Source: Archangium sp. (GTDB lineage Bacteria; Myxococcota; Myxococcia; Myxococcales; Myxococcaceae). From it: DNA of 40,200 bases. Location: the NCBI GenBank assembly GCA_030695565.1, contig JAUYRZ010000043.1:1-40200 (forward strand), given 5' to 3'. Positions 134 through 13,443 of the stretch are shown here, piece after piece. Below the pieces are notes generated by a model. It saw only the letters and a program-made list of their open reading frames with translations, was not told the DNA's origin and made no database searches. The position numbers were made by a program, and so were the translations under genes. The first letter of the stretch is position 1. Each line of letters starts with the position of its first letter.

Positions 134-3100
134 GTGCAAGCCCCAGCCGTCGCACCCTTCAAGCTTCGTCACCACGTCCGCATCGTCACCGCGGCCTCGC
201 TGTTCGACGGCCACGACGCCGCGATCAACGTCATGCGCCGGATCATGCAGTCCTCCGGCGCCGAAGTGATCCACCTGGGTCACAACCGTTCGGTCGCCGA
301 GATCGTCCACTGCGCGATTCAAGAAGACGTGCAGGGCATCGCGATCACCTCGTACCAGGGCGGTCACGTCGAATACTTCAAGTACATGATCGACCTGCTC
401 AAGCAGGCGAACGCGAACATCAAGGTCTTCGGCGGCGGAGGAGGCACCATCCTCCCGTCCGAGATCGAAGAGCTGCACAAGTACGGAGTGACGCGCCTGT
501 ACTCACCCGACGACGGCCGGGCGATGGGCCTGCAGGGCATGATCGACGACGTGATCAAGCAGTGCGACTTCGAGAAGCGGCAGGCGGACTTCAAGCCGCT
601 GCTCCCGAAGCTGCGTGAGCGCAATCCTTCGACGCTGGGCTCGCTGATCACCATCGCGGAGAACTTCCCTGACGCAGGAGACGGTCTGCGCACCGCGCTC
701 ACCGAGGTCGCGCAGTCGAACGCACGCGTACCTGTTCTCGGAATCACGGGCACCGGTGGCGCCGGCAAGTCGAGCCTGGTGGACGAGCTGGTCCGCCGGT
801 TCCTCACGGACTTCAAAGACAAGACGATGGCGGTGATCTCGGTCGATCCCTCCAAGCGCAAGACGGGCGGCGCGCTGCTGGGCGATCGCATCCGAATGAA
901 CTCGATCGACGACCCGCGCGTGTACATGCGTTCGCTCGCGACGCGGCAGAGCAACCTGGCGCTCTCCAAGCACGTGCGTGAGTCGATCGAGATCTGCCGT
1001 GCGGCGGGCTTCGATCTGATCGTGGTGGAGACCTCGGGCATCGGCCAGTCCGACACGGAGATCACGGATCACGCCGATGTCTCGCTGTACATCATGACCG
1101 CGGAATATGGCGCCGCGACGCAGCTCGAGAAGATCGACATGCTCGACTTCGCGGACATCGTGGCGATCAACAAGTTCGACAAGCGTGGCTCGCTCGATGC
1201 GCTGCGTGACGTGCGCAAGCAGTGGAAGCGCAACCACAACGCGTTCGATCGCAAAGACGAAGACGTGCCGGTCTACGGAACGATCGCCTCGCAGTTCAAC
1301 GATCCCGGAATGAACCAGCTGTACCGGGCGATCATCGGAGTGCTCGCGAAGAAGACGGGCGTGAAGCTCGAGTCGCACCTCGAAGTCACGCCGGGCATGA
1401 GCGAGAAGAAGTGGATCATTCCGCCCGAGCGCACGCGCTACCTCGCGGAGATCGTCGAGACCTGTGAGGACTACGACGGCGTGGTCCGCGCGCAGGCGGC
1501 CATCGCGCGGCGCATGTACCAGCTGCACGGCACCATCGAGTTGCTGCGCGCCAACGTCGGCAAGAAGAAGCTGGAGATCGTCGAGCCGAAGGCGGCTGGC
1601 GGCGTAGTGCAGGTGACCGAGAAGGTCGAAGGCGAGCCCGCGTTCCTCGGTGAATTGGTCGCGCTCTACGGCGAACTCGAGAACCGTCTGCTGCCCGACT
1701 GCAAGCGGCTGCTGGCGGAGTGGCCTGCGACGAAGAAGCGGTACTCGGCGGCGAAGTACCAGTTCCAGGTGCGCGAGAAGATCATCGAGCTCGACCTGGT
1801 GACCGAGTCGCTCTCGCACCTGAAGATCCCCAAGGTCTCGTTGCCGAAATACGAAGACTGGGGCGACGTGCTCACGTGGCTGCTGCGCGAGAGTCCTCCG
1901 GGGCAGTTCCCGTTCACTGCGGGCGTCTTCCCGCTCAAGCGTGACGGAGAAGATCCGGCGCGCATGTTCGCGGGTGAGGGCGGCCCGGAGCGCACCAACA
2001 AGCGTTTTCACTACGTCTCACGCGGCCTTGCGGCGAAGCGGCTCTCGACGGCCTTCGACTCGGTGACGCTCTACGGAGAAGACCCGGATCCGCGGCCGGA
2101 CATCTACGGGAAGGTCGGCAACTCCGGCGTGTCGATCGCCAGCGTGGATGACGCGAAGAAGCTCTACTCGGGCTTCGATCTGGCGGACCCGTCGACTTCG
2201 GTGTCGATGACGATCAACGGTCCTGCGCCGATGCTGCTGGGGTTCTTCCTGAACGCGGCGATCGATCAGCAGTGCGAGAAGTGGATCAAGGCGCAGGGCA
2301 AGACTGCCGAGATCGAGAAGAAGATCGACGAGCTGTTCAAGGCCCGCGGCGTTCCGCGCCCGAAGTACCAGGGCACGTTGCCCGAGGGAAATGACGGACT
2401 CGGCCTGATGCTGCTGGGCGTGTCGGGTGACGAGGTGTTGCCGCCCGAGGTGTACGGAAAGATCCGCGCGGCGACGCTGTCAGCGGTTCGCGGCACGGTG
2501 CAGGCAGACATCTTGAAAGAGGATCAGGCGCAGAACACCTGCATCTTCTCCACCGAGTTCGCGCTGCGGCTGATGGGCGACATCCAGCAGCACTTCATCG
2601 ACAACAAGGTGCGGAATTTCTACTCGGTGTCGATCAGCGGGTACCACATCGCAGAAGCAGGGGCGAACCCGGTCAGCCAGCTCGCCTTCACGCTCGCGAA
2701 CGGCTTCACCTTCGTCGAGTACTACCTGTCGCGCGGCATGAACATCGACGACTTCGCGCCGAACCTTTCGTTCTTCTTCAGCAACGGAATGGACCCTGAG
2801 TACACGGTGCTCGGGCGCGTGGCCCGGCGCATCTGGGCGAAGACGATGCGCGACAAGTACGGCGCCAACGATCGTTCGCAGAAGCTGAAGTACCACATTC
2901 AGACTTCTGGCCGTTCGCTGCACGCGCAGGAGATCGCGTTCAACGACATCCGCACCACGCTGCAGGCGCTGCTGGCGTTGATGGACAACTGCAACTCGCT
3001 GCACACGAACGCGTACGACGAGGCGATCACCACGCCGACCGAAGACTCGGTGCGCCGCGCGCTGGCGATTCAGTTGGTGATCAACAAGGAGTTCGGCCTG

Positions 3101-3589
3101 TCGAAGAACGAGAACCCGACACAGGGCTCGTTCATCGTGGAAGAGCTGACCGACCTGGTCGAGGCGGCGGTGCTCAACGAGTTCCGCGCGATCTCCGAGC
3201 GTGGCGGTGTGTTGGGCGCGATGGAGCGCATGTACCAGCGCTCGAAGATCCAGGAAGAGTCGCTCTACTACGAGACGATGAAGCACGACGGTTCGCTGCC
3301 GCTGATCGGCGTGAACACGTTCCTCGATCCGAAGGGTTCGCCGACGGTGCAGCCGCCGGAAGTGATCCGCGCGACGAAGGAAGAGAAGGACTACGCGATC
3401 ACCTCACGCGACGCGTTCTGGAAGCGCAACGCCGCGACCGCGCCCGCCACGCTCGACGCAATTCAAAGAGCGGCACTCGACAACGGGAACGTGTTCGCCG
3501 CGCTGATGGAAGCTTGCAAGGTCTGCACGCTCGGCCAACTCTCAGGCGCCCTCTACAAAGTCGGAGGCCAGTACCGTCGCAACATGTGA
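134..3589 (+). CDS. icmF: Fused isobutyryl-CoA mutase / G-protein chaperone (IcmF)
   Basis: This protein interconverts isobutyryl-CoA and n-butyryl-CoA with adenosylcobalamin and carries its own GTPase chaperone. Domain order is that of IcmF: a B12-binding domain with DGHD at residues 25-28 (His27 as lower cobalt ligand), a MeaB-like GTPase with P-loop [12 protein letters not shown] at 203-214 and NKFD at 346-349, a linker, then the catalytic mutase barrel to residue 1151. The stretch FTAGVFP before the barrel and the motif [14 protein letters not shown] fit the isobutyryl rather than methylmalonyl type. Length (1151 aa) is close to the family's usual ~1090-1100 plus. The start is GTG at 134, just past an inverted repeat; no clear ribosome site is visible. 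Known relatives also accept isovaleryl/pivalyl-CoA, so substrate range is open. Confidence 0.95.
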
Positions 3590-3595
3590 CCTCTG

Positions 3596-3642
3596 ACTCC
3601 CTCTCCCTGCGCCAGCGGGGAGAGGGTTGGGGTGAGGGGCCG
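3596..3642 (+). repeat. Palindromic intergenic repeat, copy 3
   Basis: CCCTCTCCCTGCGCCAGCGGGGAGAGGG-type hairpin followed by TTGGGGTGAGGGG. It begins seven bases after the icmF stop and is well placed to act as its terminator or 3' end structure. Confidence 0.82.
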
Positions 3643-3672
3643 ACTTGGCACACCCTCTGCTGAACGAGCACC

Positions 3673-4536
3673 GTGCACTTCATCGCCGTTAGAAACCTCA
3701 CGCTTGTTTCCGCCGTCCTGCTGAGTGGGCCGGCGTTCGCCAGGGTTCAGTATTGCGCCCAGCGCTTGGCGCCAGCCGACCAACAATCGCTGCCAGCGAA
3801 TGCGCAGGCGCTGATCGCGCACGGCAAGACCTCCGTGAGATTCGACCCGCAAGACGGCGGCACGATCGTGTGGACGCCCTTCATTCGGCGCCTGAACAGC
3901 GACGGTGGCGTTCAATCACTGGTAGCGGCGCCAGATGAACTCCAACCGACGGGCGACTATGGGAACGCAACGCTGTTTCTGCCTGGCACGCTGATCCCCG
4001 GCGAGCGATTCCGGCTCGAGTCATCCTCGGACTGCAGTGGCGACCTCGAGCCAGGCGCCGAAGTGCGCGTGGGCAAACCGGCTCCCTTGCCAGAGACGTT
4101 CGGAGTGCCCTCACTCCTCGTAGAACCTGGCGAGCCCGATGGCACCCGAGAGCTCGTCATCGACATCGATGACTCCGTTCGGCCGTGGCTGAGCGTGGCC
4201 AGGGTCAACCTCGAAGTGAACGGCCGAAGCCGAAGCACCGACTACGGGCGACTGGCCCGCAGATTCGACGGTGGCTCGCGCGTCTTCGTCGACGACCTGA
4301 CGCGGCTCTGCGACCTCGAGTGGGCAGGGGAGTCCAACAACACGCTTCAGACCTGGCTCATCAAGCTCCAGTTGGAACTCCCCGGTGTTCAAGAGCGGCC
4401 TCCTGCAGTGGAGCTGACTGCTGAGATGGCTTGCCGCCAAAGCTGCGCGAGCGTCGGCGTGACCCCATGGCTGCTGGGGACGCTGCTGCTGGCCACTCGT
4501 CGCTTCACCTCGGGTCGCAGACGCCGCAACATCTGA
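3673..4536 (+). CDS. Unknown secreted protein with MYXO-CTERM-like tail
   Basis: I do not recognise a family. The 287-residue product starts with a likely Sec signal (hydrophobic residues about 8-22, ending SGPAFA), so the body is exported. The middle is a beta-rich, proline-containing domain without an obvious catalytic motif. The C-terminus has paired cysteines (CRQSC), a short hydrophobic run (VTPWLLGTLLLA) and an Arg-rich end (RRRRNI). That tripartite arrangement resembles the MYXO-CTERM tails that anchor or sort surface proteins in myxobacteria; the resemblance is by architecture. The start is GTG at 3673; the following gene begins seven bases after the stop, suggesting co-transcription. 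It lies in the accessory stretch between two mutase loci. Confidence 0.7.
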   Translation: MHFIAVRNLTLVSAVLLSGPAFARVQYCAQRLAPADQQSLPANAQALIAHGKTSVRFDPQDGGTIVWTPFIRRLNSDGGVQSLVAAPDELQPTGDYGNATLFLPGTLIPGERFRLESSSDCSGDLEPGAEVRVGKPAPLPETFGVPSLLVEPGEPDGTRELVIDIDDSVRPWLSVARVNLEVNGRSRSTDYGRLARRFDGGSRVFVDDLTRLCDLEWAGESNNTLQTWLIKLQLELPGVQERPPAVELTAEMACRQSCASVGVTPWLLGTLLLATRRFTSGRRRRNI

Positions 4537-4543
4537 ACCGGAC

Positions 4544-4981
4544 ATGCGTCCCAACTGCGATTCAGATCATGATTGGGAGGTCATCACTCAGGCCTCGTTC
4601 GTGACGAAGCGTCTGGTCTGGAGCCAGTCCTCCAGTTGCAGGGCCTGCCACGCGCGAATGGAAGTGGACGGTGACGGCATTCCTCCACCCGAAGTGCGGG
4701 AACTCTTGCTGTCGAGAGACGGCGTTTGGGGGCTTCGGAACGCGAGCCGGCGTGGCTTCGCCCGAGCCATTGCTTCGTTACTTCACTTGGGCGTCGTTGA
4801 AACCTGGCCGCTGGTCTCAGACCGTGACGGAGTCATTGCAGTCGGGACGAGGGCAGAGGCGCTCTGGGTTGCAGCCACCCTGAGTGCAGACGGAGAGGGA
4901 GCTGAGATCGTCCGAGTCGACTCAGCTGACGGAATCCTTGGGATCCTCTCTACCAACCGCTTCCGGCGATCTGCCGAGTAG
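4544..4981 (+). CDS. Unknown small cytoplasmic protein
   Basis: This is a 145-residue protein with no family I can name. It has no signal peptide or membrane helix. The N-terminal third contains a cysteine pair (CRACHA, around residue 33-38) plus Cys5, which might bind metal. The C-terminal half (VETWPLVSDRDGVIAVGTRAEALWVAATLSADG) looks like an alpha/beta fold. ATG at 4544 is seven bases after the stop of the upstream exported protein, so the two are probably one transcription unit. Its last 32 bases overlap tail-to-tail with the AhpD-like remnant on the other strand. Confidence 0.6.
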   Translation: MRPNCDSDHDWEVITQASFVTKRLVWSQSSSCRACHARMEVDGDGIPPPEVRELLLSRDGVWGLRNASRRGFARAIASLLHLGVVETWPLVSDRDGVIAVGTRAEALWVAATLSADGEGAEIVRVDSADGILGILSTNRFRRSAE

Positions 4982-5195
4982 CCACGTTCGTCCGGTTCCA
5001 GAAGTTGATGAACGCGATGTTGAACACGAGCGCCCATCGCTGGGTCTCGTCGAAGAACCGGCACACCTCGTCCCAGATCGCGTCAGGCACCGGATCGGAG
5101 CGATCACTGATGCGCGTGGTGGCCTCGGTCAGCGCGAGTGCAACCCGTTCAGCATGCGTGAAGAACGGCGCTTCCGGCGACGCGGCCACCGAGAA
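4950..5195 (-). pseudogene. Truncated carboxymuconolactone decarboxylase / AhpD-family remnant
   Basis: On the minus strand residues such as SPEAPFFTHAERVALALTEA, then DAIWDEVCRFFDE and INFWNRTNVATRQ, match the C-terminal half of AhpD-like carboxymuconolactone decarboxylase family proteins. The N-terminal half, which holds the helix with the redox CxxC and its histidine, is missing. Homology starts abruptly at about 5192, exactly where base composition drops towards AT. The missing half was not found past the DUF262 gene either, so an insertion with deletion or a recombination end-point is the simplest reading. An open frame continues to an ATG at 5225, giving 91 residues, but the first eleven or so do not look native. 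The remnant is very probably inactive as a peroxidase. Confidence 0.75.
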
Positions 5196-5473
5196 AATCA
5201 ATGTAGATTTATCGACAACCCCCATTCACAACGCACAACAACCATTAATTAACTTCCTGGGAAGCCGAGCGCAAGTCGGTGATTTATCGCCGGCCTATCG
5301 AAAGAAGATTCTGCCTCCCTTTGCGCCTCATCCATGCCGGCCACTTGAGCCTCGAGCGGGGAGCGCGCCAGTTAATAGGACTGCGTTTGGCAGACTGGCA
5401 GACCCGAAAGACCCTAGGTCAAGACGTGGTTTTTGTTGTAGGTTCTCAACCCATCTCGTTTGGGGGTCTCAAG
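5196..5473. other. AT-richer intergenic stretch at island border
   Basis: About 280 bases between the AhpD remnant and the DUF262 start. It contains runs such as ATTAATTAA near 5246 that are rare elsewhere in this window. I see no convincing gene, inverted repeat or attachment site. An in-frame extension of the DUF262 ORF reaches back to 5279, but its translation looks random and is not taken as coding. The DUF262 promoter should lie here. Confidence 0.5.
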
Positions 5474-7408
5474 ATGAGCATTACGCCGAAGGGTATGAGT
5501 CTGCAGGAAGCTTACCGGCTCTATCGGGATGATCGGTTCGTCGTCAATCGTCGCTATCAGCGAAAGCTAGTTTGGACGGTAGAAGAGAAGCAGCGCCTGA
5601 TTGACAGCATCCGATCTGAGTTCCCAATTCCCTTGATTCTATTGGCGGAGAGGGTGAGCGGAGGCGGGCTGGCATCTTTTGAAATAATTGATGGAATGCA
5701 ACGACTAAATGCAATCTTTACGTTCATTGAAATGGCATTCGATCTCGGCGGACACTATTTCGATATTCGCGAGTTCCCGCGTGCCAATCAGGCCGCAAAG
5801 GACGGCAAGTTTACGCCAAGAGATGGTGTTGACCTGCTCACGCCAGATGACTGTGCCGACTTCCTGGACTACAATCTAGCTGTAACGACCTTTCCTGCCA
5901 AAAGCGACGATCAGGTCAATTCAGTTTTTGGCCGAATCAACTCGAATGGCAAACATCTCAGCCCCCAAGAAACCAGGCAAGCCGGCGTCAGCACCGCCTT
6001 TGCCGACCTCGTAAGACGGACTAGCGCTGAGATTCGTGGCGACACTTCTGCCGATGTTCTGCTTTTGGCGCAGATGCCGCAGATTAGCATTGAGACGGAA
6101 CGCGAGCAGCAAGGCTATGGAGTACGGGCCGACGACACTTTTTGGTGCCGGCAAGGGATTCTCTTGCGTGCCCAATTACGCGACAGCGAAGACGAGCAAT
6201 TGCTTGCGGATATTGCGGCGTCGATTCTCCTGGAGGAACCTTTTGCATTTAGCCGAGAGCAGCTCGATCAAGCCTACTCACTCGGAAGCAAGCTTCAGCT
6301 TGATTTGGAGAACCGGCTTTCGAAGTATGGCTCCGACAGACTTTCGCATGAAATAAAGACAGTTCTGTCGGTTCTCAGGGACACGCTGGAGGCGTATAGC
6401 GCGGACGCTAATTGCCTGCGGAATGCGGTACGCACAAGTTCGTCGGGAAACCCAATAAAGACCGAATTCTATGCGGTTTTCATGACGTTCTTTGATTTCA
6501 TGGTTACTCATGGTCGTTCGCCGGACGATCCGACAGAACTGGTCGGTTCGCTTCGTGGACTGGCTGGCAAGTTGGACCACCAGTCGCACTACACGACAAC
6601 CGAGGGGCGACAGCAAAACATTAGAATCACGCGCGGGTTGCTGGATGATTTTTTCGTGAAGAAGACTCCCCCTGCGTTGCTTCATGGCCCCGGTCTCGCT
6701 CTGGACTTCGAAAACTCAATCCGCAGGTCTCGCATCGAGTCGTCCCGCTACGAGTGCAAGCAGGGCCTATGCACCCTTGCTCCGACTGGTCGAATTGCGG
6801 ACCAGGAACTCATGAGTCGACTGTCGAACACGATTTGTGCGATTGCGAACGTTGGGCCTGAGGCGGATGGCTTTTTGTTTGTGGGAGTCGCAGACAAGAA
6901 GGCTGATGCCGATCGTGTTCTCGCACTTGATGGTGTGGCTGCCATTCCGATTGGCGATAGGTTCGTGGTTGGAGTGGACCGCGAAGCAAAGTTGCTTGGT
7001 ATTCAACTCGAGCGCCATGTAGAGCAGTTTTCGAATGCGATTCGGAATTCTGCTCTCACCGATCCACTGAAGACGCAGGTGCTTTCTGCGATCGATTGTG
7101 TTGAATACAAGGGGTTGTCGGTGATTCGTGTTCGGGTTCCTGCCCAGCGCGCGATTTCTTTTGTCGGTGATGTTGCATATGTCCGTGACGGCGCGAACAC
7201 AAAGGAGGCTCGCGGGCCGGCATTGGCTGCAGTGGTTGAGCGATTTCTGGGGCATGTTCCGGGAGTGCGCGGGGCAGGGTCTCCTCAACCTGTCATGAGG
7301 AGTTTCCCCCAAGATCGGAAGCCTGCAGCGCCGGCCCCTAAAACTAAGGTCGCCGCGAAGGGTGTCCCCGCCTCGCCCAAGCCGGCGACAGGAAAGAAGC
7401 GAAAGTAG
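5474..7408 (+). CDS. DUF262 (ParB/GmrS-like) protein fused to AlbA_2/Schlafen-like domain
   Basis: A 644-residue protein. The N-terminus is a DUF262 domain: NRRYQRKLVW at 25-34, the signature DGMQR at 73-77 (family form DGQQR) and FGRINSNGKHLSPQETR at 152-168. DUF262 is the NTP-binding/hydrolysing module of GmrSD, SspE and BrxU antiphage enzymes. No DUF1524 HNH nuclease follows; instead an AlbA_2/Schlafen-type region begins with IESSRYECKQG at 421-431 and continues through TICAIANVGPEADGFLFVGV at 453-472. The last 45 residues are Lys/Pro/Ala-rich. The start ATG 5474 is chosen because the family N-terminus begins there and GGGGGTC lies just upstream. Base composition is near 50-60% GC in sampled lines, clearly below its neighbours, so it was probably acquired horizontally. 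A defence role is inference; no partner gene is adjacent. Confidence 0.8.
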   Translation: MSITPKGMSLQEAYRLYRDDRFVVNRRYQRKLVWTVEEKQRLIDSIRSEFPIPLILLAERVSGGGLASFEIIDGMQRLNAIFTFIEMAFDLGGHYFDIREFPRANQAAKDGKFTPRDGVDLLTPDDCADFLDYNLAVTTFPAKSDDQVNSVFGRINSNGKHLSPQETRQAGVSTAFADLVRRTSAEIRGDTSADVLLLAQMPQISIETEREQQGYGVRADDTFWCRQGILLRAQLRDSEDEQLLADIAASILLEEPFAFSREQLDQAYSLGSKLQLDLENRLSKYGSDRLSHEIKTVLSVLRDTLEAYSADANCLRNAVRTSSSGNPIKTEFYAVFMTFFDFMVTHGRSPDDPTELVGSLRGLAGKLDHQSHYTTTEGRQQNIRITRGLLDDFFVKKTPPALLHGPGLALDFENSIRRSRIESSRYECKQGLCTLAPTGRIADQELMSRLSNTICAIANVGPEADGFLFVGVADKKADADRVLALDGVAAIPIGDRFVVGVDREAKLLGIQLERHVEQFSNAIRNSALTDPLKTQVLSAIDCVEYKGLSVIRVRVPAQRAISFVGDVAYVRDGANTKEARGPALAAVVERFLGHVPGVRGAGSPQPVMRSFPQDRKPAAPAPKTKVAAKGVPASPKPATGKKRK

Positions 7409-7548
7409 CGTCACTTAGTGCGGTGCACCTTGTGACTGAAAGTTGCAGTCGGCTGCATCGCTGGCTCTTCTTGGAGCAGGAGACCGCCTCAAAGCTGGCA
7501 CCTGCCGAGCCCCTTGCCGCGAGCCGGACTCTGACGGATGAAGGGAAC
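7409..7548. other. Gap before mutA
   Basis: 140 bases between the DUF262 stop and mutA. Open reading frame extends back to GTG 7423, but that extension has no resemblance to a mutase N-terminus. A good ribosome site GAAGGGA (7540-7547) precedes ATG 7549. The promoter of the mutAB operon is expected here; I cannot assign -35/-10 boxes with confidence. Confidence 0.5.
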
Positions 7549-12255: not shown

Positions 12256-12285
12256 GCTCTTTTTTTCGGGGTGACCCCGGTCAGA
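12251..12285. promoter_or_regulatory. Imperfect palindrome between meaB and next gene
   Basis: A perfect inner palindrome CGGGGTGACCCCG at 12267-12279 sits within outer arms TCTGA (12251-12255) and TCAGA (12281-12285). It follows a run of seven T residues, so it is not a classical rho-independent terminator for the plus strand. It could be an operator or RNA structure. The meaB stop codon overlaps its left arm. Confidence 0.35.
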
Positions 12286-12327
12286 GTCCTCGCGCCGACG
12301 AGCCCAGCGCGTACAATTCACCTCGAC

Positions 12328-13443
12328 GTGCCGACACTCAGCTGTTTCTTCGCGATCTACACCGAGGGAGAGAGTCTCCACGACTCGTTCCCTTCGCCCA
12401 CCGCCACCGATGTGTTCCTCGGCGAGATGGGAACCCTCATCCTCCCCGGCCCGAAAGACGAACTCTTCGGCCCTCACGCGAACATCTTCTCGCGCGTGAA
12501 GCTCAAGCGAGGCTTCCTGCTGGGCTTCACCCGCAAGCTGCACGGGCGGGCGGAGACCTTCTTCAGCGAAGTGCGCATGGCCGTGCTGCGCGCGACCGCG
12601 GGCGCCAAGGGCGTCGGGCTCGACATCTTGAGGCTCGCTCCGTTTCCGCTGGAGACCGCGAGCGAATCGCTCCCGGAGGACCTGCTCGCCGAAGACCTGT
12701 TCTCGGTCGGCTTCACCGAGATGGGCGACAGGGGCCTGCGCGCCGAGACGCTGGGTTTCGCCAAGCTGGGTCAGCGCGAGATCACCTTCGAGTTCACCGA
12801 CCCCGCGCTCATCGAAGAGGCCGCGTTGATGTGCGGCCATCTCGCTGACTGGCTGCTCGATCACAAGAAGCGCATCTCACACGGCGAGTCGATGTCGTTC
12901 GGGTTCGACCGCATCTCGTTCTTCTCCGCCGAAGGCAGTGCAGGGGGCCCCTTCCGCGGGTGGCACCCGCCGTTGATTCAGAAGCTGATCCCCGAAGAGC
13001 TCTTTCCGGGCGTCGGGGTGCTCGAAGTGCACGCGTTCCCTCCGGGCCACGCCGACCTGCGAGAAGACCTGACCATTCCGCTGCGCCGCGCGCTCGAACA
13101 GCGCACGTTGTTGGAGGAGCTGGATCTCTCCGGCGACGCGCCGCACTCCTCGAGCACGGCCCAGGTGAAGGGCTTCATCACCGAGCTCAAGAGCCTCGTG
13201 GCGATGCGCGAAGAGTCGGCCAACTCGAAAGACAGCGGCTGGCGCTTTCGCAGCACCGTCGAGGGTGACTCGGGAGAGAACGGCGTGATGTCGCTGGCCG
13301 ATCTCGCGCGCCGCGCGCCTGAGCTGGTGCGTTTTCTCGCGCTCCCTCAGGGCGTGAAGCTCACCTGGGACATTCAGGGAGATCTCGATGTCGACCGGTC
13401 TCGCGTCGAGTTGGATGAGGACGAGCTGGCCGACGACTCATGA
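12328..13443 (+). CDS. Conserved-looking protein of unknown function
   Basis: The gene has strong coding bias but no family I can name. The product (371 residues from GTG 12328; the frame stays open to GTG 12271) lacks a signal peptide or membrane helix. It opens PTLSCFFAIYTEGESLHDSFPSP and contains a central region of mixed alpha/beta character (RGFLLGFTRKLHGRAETFF, LMCGHLADWLLDHKK) and an acidic end (RVELDEDELADDS). GTG 12328 is favoured because the preceding residues fall in the palindromic gap and look non-coding. The downstream methyltransferase starts at or just after its stop, suggesting a shared transcript with meaB and the HMG-CoA lyase gene. Function unknown. Confidence 0.6.
   Translation: MPTLSCFFAIYTEGESLHDSFPSPTATDVFLGEMGTLILPGPKDELFGPHANIFSRVKLKRGFLLGFTRKLHGRAETFFSEVRMAVLRATAGAKGVGLDILRLAPFPLETASESLPEDLLAEDLFSVGFTEMGDRGLRAETLGFAKLGQREITFEFTDPALIEEAALMCGHLADWLLDHKKRISHGESMSFGFDRISFFSAEGSAGGPFRGWHPPLIQKLIPEELFPGVGVLEVHAFPPGHADLREDLTIPLRRALEQRTLLEELDLSGDAPHSSSTAQVKGFITELKSLVAMREESANSKDSGWRFRSTVEGDSGENGVMSLADLARRAPELVRFLALPQGVKLTWDIQGDLDVDRSRVELDEDELADDS

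Follow-up and report, generated by a model that had tools for sequence, protein, structure and literature searches.

The insert between icmF and the mutase genes

The window (i.e. the whole stretch of 40,200 nucleotides analysed here, from an Archangium sp. contig) carries icmF at 134-3589 and, from about 7549, genes for methylmalonyl-CoA mutase. Between these lies a gene, present as a single copy in its genome, for a protein of 644 residues that joins a DUF262 domain to a Schlafen/AlbA_2 domain (see table). The initial annotation had placed the start of this gene at 5196, which is instead the left edge of the insert; the best start is the ATG at 5474, with coding sequence to 7405 and the stop codon ending at 7408. 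The GC content of the insert is 0.536, whereas the other 2.1-kb stretches of the window average 0.660 (SD 0.016, minimum 0.630), confirming the low base composition that had been described, and third-position GC is 0.57 in the fusion gene compared with 0.84-0.88 in icmF, mutA and mutB. The insert is missing from five close relatives. As the gap between icmF and mutA is only about 15-370 bp in the close relatives compared, the whole block at 3590-7548 is extra in this genome.

Features of the extra block and of the fusion protein (window coordinates)
Feature	Position	Strand	Support
DUF262-Schlafen(AlbA_2) fusion gene, 644 aa	5474..7408	+	ATG coincides with where most homologues start
DUF262/GmrSD_N (ParB/Srx-like NTPase) domain, residues 23-170	5540..5983	+	Pfam PF03235, 1.2e-20; fold match to BrxU, SspE, ParB/Noc
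QR motif, Q29 R30	5558..5563	+	conserved in 101/101
DGMQR motif, residues 73-77	5690..5704	+	D, G, Q, R invariant in 101/101; middle residue varies
FxxxN motif (FGRIN), residues 152-156	5927..5941	+	F152, R154, N156 in 101/101
BrxU-like helical linker, residues ~165-400	5966..6673	+	AlphaFold secondary structure; BrxU 1-418 on residues 3-394
Schlafen/AlbA_2 domain, residues ~405-595	6686..7258	+	Pfam; domain model pLDDT 93; top 19 structural matches
Putative active-site motif E422-x4-E427-x-K429	6737..6760	+	conservation; aligned with SLFN11 ESQSIEFK
GVAD, residues 471-474, with D474 as candidate third acid	6884..6895	+	acidic at 474 in 101/101
Basic tail private to this copy, residues 596-644, Pro/Ala/Lys-rich and predicted disordered	7259..7405	+	absent from 100 homologues; pLDDT <50; GC 0.653
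AhpD/CMD-like gene, C-terminal remnant cut at the insert's left edge	4953..5198	-	homologue alignments
Extra block between icmF and mutA	3590..7548	.	missing in the close relatives compared

The broken neighbouring gene that had been reported at the left edge is an AhpD/carboxymuconolactone-decarboxylase (CMD)-like gene on the reverse strand, whose homologues align only from about mid-protein onward, from window position 5198; its N-terminal half was looked for across the whole window and was not found. The half that has been lost is the one with the CxxC motif. Two further ORFs of the extra block, at 3673-4536 (+) and 4544-4981 (+), have host-like GC and no Pfam matches. Elsewhere in the window, downstream of meaB, a 390-aa protein encoded at 12271-13443 (+) has a C-terminal Imm33-like domain (1e-6).

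At its other end the window copy of the fusion gene has lost its native 3' end. Because the basic tail is missing from the homologues (none of the 100 aligned, which are 576-601 aa long, contains it), is predicted to be disordered and has a host-like GC, it is probably host DNA from the right junction, translated by read-through once the native stop had been lost. The basic tail of the initial annotation is thus a property of this copy and not of the family. Three other accounts of the gene could be rejected: an artefact or chance ORF by the existence of 100 full-length homologues, a frameshift or pseudogene by the lack of any stop and the presence of all motifs, and assembly contamination by the flanking icmF, which is 92-94% identical to same-genus genomes.

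Two domains in one protein

The protein combines a DUF262 sensor-type domain with a Schlafen/AlbA_2 domain, an assignment of which we are as good as certain; both Pfam matches, GmrSD_N and SLFN_AlbA_2 (residues 444-476, 5.7e-7), lie above the curated cut-offs, and AlphaFold gave a mean pLDDT of 85.7 and a pTM of 0.81 for the whole protein (from 101 sequences) and 93.0 and 0.89, respectively, for the C-terminal domain alone. The DUF262 motif set claimed initially is fully present, with Q29, R30, D73, G74, Q76, R77, F152, R154 and N156 all invariant in the alignment of 101 sequences. When the model was searched against known structures, residues 3-394 aligned with BrxU 1-418 (Z 8.7), the rmsd of 11.4 over 278 residues indicating that the pieces match while their arrangement differs; residues 1-161 aligned with SspE (Z 8.2) and then with ParB, Noc and sulfiredoxin folds, and DndI matched with Z 5.8. 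A Foldseek search with the whole model returned no match under 0.001. DUF262 is a sensor common to many defence systems, and to our knowledge its effectors so far are DNA nucleases or unknown partners. Its precedents bind and hydrolyse NTPs, sense DNA modification and pass the signal to a C-terminal nuclease (PMC10952713, PMC12137116).

The assignment of the C-terminal half to AlbA_2/Schlafen, in the place where DUF1524 would be expected, is borne out by profile, structure and conservation; the lack of a structural match, which the initial annotation had named as a refuting result, was not what the searches gave. Residues 404-597 of the model align with DIP2311 (3lmm), SAMD9 (7ksp, 9o0d) and Schlafens, with Z scores of 10.9-11.1 for DIP2311, 10.4-10.5 for the DNA-bound domain of SAMD9, 9.5-10.2 for the SAMD9 tRNase domain and 6.0-8.7 for the SLFN family. 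The top 19 rows of the domain search were all SLFN, SAMD9 or AlbA_2, with Z falling from 11.1 to 6.0 before a drop to 4.8 in row 20; PF04326 scored above its cut-off, VIA Z scores were 11.1, 10.5 and 10.2, and Foldseek with the C-terminal domain alone found 3lmm at 4.6e-5.

The putative catalytic residues are strongly conserved: E422 and K429 are found in 101/101 sequences, position 427 holds E in 95 of them and D in the other 6, and position 474 holds D in 99 and E in the remaining 2. E422, K429, G431, N459, G471 and R571 are the sole invariant columns of the domain, and the putative catalytic residues are still kept in the most distant members, which are down to 18-25% identity in this domain. 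A profile alignment, taken from a PDB search that gave weak matches only and was used for residue correspondence alone, places E422/E427/K429 opposite ESQSIEFK of SLFN11. In rat SLFN13 the pivotal catalytic glutamates are E205 and E210, mutation of either of which abolishes RNase activity, and D248 is the third acid, E249A having served as a control (PMC5862951). In the sequence alignment D248 faces A473 and the next residue faces D474, which puts the candidate third acid one residue off in that alignment. The Schlafen-type domain is related to human antiviral RNases; it is quite likely to be an active nuclease and, if so, RNA would be its somewhat more probable target.

The protein resembles BrxU, GmrSD, SspE and GrwAB in having a DUF262 domain with QR, DG-x-QR and FxxxN motifs and a helical arm, but differs from them in carrying a Schlafen domain in place of their DUF1524 His-Me nuclease and in the middle residue of DGxQR, which is mostly M or L in the family and Q in these enzymes. 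As no Pfam match to DUF1524 (PF07510) was found in it, the protein does not belong to the GmrSD-type enzymes; it plausibly works like one up to the effector. It shares the fold of residues 404-597 and the E-x4-E-x-K site with SLFN11/13/14 and the SAMD9 tRNase domain, whereas its Schlafen domain has a single AlbA_2 lobe and is C-terminal, attached to DUF262, rather than N-terminal. PADLOC has no full-length model for the fusion and matched its N-terminal DUF262 to NsnA (2.3e-24), which we take to be the Menshen protein, and to PD-T4-2_A (1.2e-13). Both belong to multi-gene systems, whereas the fusion, in which the similarity ends by residue 184, has a different C-terminus and no conserved partners; it stands alone and is not a member of Menshen (NsnABC).

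The description of the fusion as undescribed holds for the literature searched: DUF262 and AlbA_2 did not occur together in any paper there, the single paper with both DUF262 and Schlafen treats them separately and does not describe the fusion, nothing relevant was found on NsnA and no functional test of any family member was found; a 2025 preprint on bacterial Schlafens lay outside that search. In that preprint (Taboada et al., as cited in PMC12839542) bacterial Schlafens are reportedly anti-phage, with the Schlafen nuclease proposed as an abortive tRNase effector. A phylogenomic study of GmrSD gives DUF4268, DUF4357 and DNA_binding_1 as extra domains, AlbA_2 not being among them (PMC4619093), and in BREX-linked Schlafens the fusion partners are a wHTH and a histidine-kinase-like domain (PMC12839542).

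Spread and genomic settings of the family

The same two-domain order, which the initial annotation had proposed to look for in other genomes, is widespread: at least 313 stretches of GTDB genomes encode a relative, and the best 80 of these are mostly full-length, aligning colinearly in a single stretch at 41-54% identity. A tblastn search of plasmids found relatives on 1491 records (141 nearly full length), and 32 IMG/VR contigs were found by patterns from the alignment, with none found there by patterns from the window protein alone; locus counts for the family are set by such pattern scans and are lower bounds. The retrieved loci come from Pseudomonadota, Cyanobacteriota, Actinomycetota, Bacteroidota, Bacillota, Chloroflexota, Myxococcota and archaea. 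In PHROGs, phrog_26759 matches over its full length (positions 3-591 of 593, 3.6e-121) and is the same family, listed there with function unknown, and the RefSeq name for members in E. coli is 'GmrSD restriction endonuclease domain-containing protein'. With members in GTDB genomes, on plasmids and in prophages, the family is not an oddity of the source genome.

Within the Myxococcota the family is found in 2/195 genomes, i.e. in one other genome beside the source, and none of 60 kin genomes contains a full-length relative. In the tree, which excludes the nearest relative (G144, 55% identity), the window protein sits on a long branch and groups (97/94) with a mixture of Myxococcota, Pseudomonadota, Fidelibacterota and Cyanobacteriota. 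That phylum labels change more than once in a tree does not in itself prove transfer; taken together, the several phylum labels in this group, the low GC and the empty site in relatives fit horizontal acquisition of the gene.

Family members are solo genes, as had been proposed initially. Neighbouring genes are on the same strand at 53/96 loci upstream and 41/98 downstream (100 loci), as for random orientation, and few same-strand genes are within 50 bp (7 upstream, 12 downstream); no conserved same-strand partner gene was found in the 100 loci. Full-length copies occur once per genome in the 36 genomes examined.

At least 11 loci, some of them near-identical, occupy the gpA-gpQ interval of P2-like prophages, flanked by gpA and, at the opposite end, by gpQ/gpP (L076, L093, L099, L101-L104, L111, L112, L120 and L121). 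This cos-proximal gpA-gpQ region is a hotspot of anti-phage systems, tested ones included, and is where P2 carries old and tin (PMC9122126). In the laboratory strain E. coli W an intact member of 593 aa, with all motifs, lies in this region of a P2-like prophage, between the replication endonuclease and portal genes, and the gene is carried by 17 complete E. coli genomes. Two further members adjoin gpV, one of them (L109, 7962-9737) between gpV and gpS and the other at L118; this is apparently a second prophage accessory site, presumably the Z/fun position.

Plasmid members were found next to PemIK in one setting; in another their neighbours are a C5-methyltransferase, a PLD restriction endonuclease and a Z1 gene, and elsewhere TIR and Lit genes are nearby. 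The member beside pemIK is broken on most IncF plasmids, with homology ending at nt 1284, just past the FKQG active-site motif; the broken copies consist of separate pieces, 1-1284 and 1276-1770, which overlap by 9 nt as from an IS1 target duplication, and in NC_004998.1 the broken member (3962-5244) has IS1 close by. Among E. coli genomes with a match, 105/803 keep 80% of the gene. On one IMG/VR contig with a family member (L108), a nearby protein at 4505-5683 (-) has SGASETAHLEFKRESYG near its start and looks like a second AlbA_2/Schlafen-type protein.

Within 20 kb of the 36 chromosomal copies we found no N6- or C5-methyltransferase (PF02384, PF00145) compared with 1.24 expected, a count of same-contig pairs checked by hand from which fragmented assemblies would hide some; the argument from restriction-modification islands is thus not supported for chromosomal copies. 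In PADLOC scans the immediate neighbours gave diverse matches, to 155 families, and a matched set of distant genes from the same loci gave matches to 98; there is redundancy among these families and prophages are part of the near set, and the difference is not used as an argument here.

Possible function and alternative readings

As near relatives occupy a recognised hotspot of phage defence, the fusion is probably a one-gene phage-defence system, and we consider a defence function fairly likely. The proposal of defence made initially gains from the P2 location, carriage on plasmids and the patchy spread, but not from the chromosomal copies, which do not cluster with methyltransferases. A stand-alone protein of this kind would guard against phages or other mobile elements. 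Its DUF262 NTPase and helical arm would detect a signal of invasion, for which modified DNA has precedent in BrxU, GmrSD, SspE and GrwAB, and nucleotide binding or hydrolysis by DUF262 would lead to a change of shape. This may release the Schlafen nuclease, where enzymes of the BrxU/GmrSD type release a DUF1524 DNA nuclease. By the precedent of SLFN13 and SAMD9, the E-x4-E-x-K site would then cut tRNA or other RNA, and the resulting stop in translation would amount to abortive infection. To the reading as a whole, i.e. abortive infection by a Schlafen RNase that is unleashed by an NTP-dependent DUF262 sensor, we give roughly even chances. More tentative, and less likely than not, is its specific form, a widespread undescribed one-gene immunity in which DUF262 senses modified or invading DNA and a Schlafen tRNase halts translation instead of DNA being cut. 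In that form it would parallel, in bacteria, the animal antiviral proteins that couple a sensor to Schlafen or SAMD9.

The fusion could instead be a variant of Type IV restriction, in which modified phage DNA is recognised by DUF262 and is bound and cut by the Schlafen/AlbA_2 domain in place of DUF1524. The N-terminal two-thirds of the protein does align with BrxU, modified DNA is what DUF262 relatives act on (PMC10952713, PMC12137116) and the AlbA_2-type domain of SAMD9 was solved bound to DNA (7ksp, Z 10.4-10.5). However, the fusion is without DUF1524, its conserved E-x4-E-x-K is an RNase site, and a C-terminal fusion is equally compatible with an RNase of abortive infection; we regard this variant as unlikely.

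AlbA_2 domains are frequently annotated as regulators, and the family could serve mobile elements as an accessory gene outside defence, e.g. in plasmid or prophage regulation or stability, its AlbA_2 domain serving to bind nucleic acid. Such a role, which would suit the many members on plasmids and prophages and the chromosomal copies lying away from methyltransferases, appears distinctly unlikely, since a binding domain does not need the catalytic-type residues that are invariant here, many chromosomal copies are outside recognisable elements and no partner gene is conserved. That the window copy is a decaying passenger, i.e. an inserted remnant with no present function, is improbable, as some 595 family codons are free of stops and every family-invariant residue is kept, despite the truncated neighbour, the replaced 3' end and tail, the low GC and the long tree branch.

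If the reading as a one-gene defence system with a Schlafen RNase is correct, a family found in hundreds of species would link the sensing of DNA to the cleavage of RNA within one protein. It would extend Schlafen-type immunity and supply a function for a PHROG family as well as for RefSeq proteins that are named by their N-terminal domain alone.
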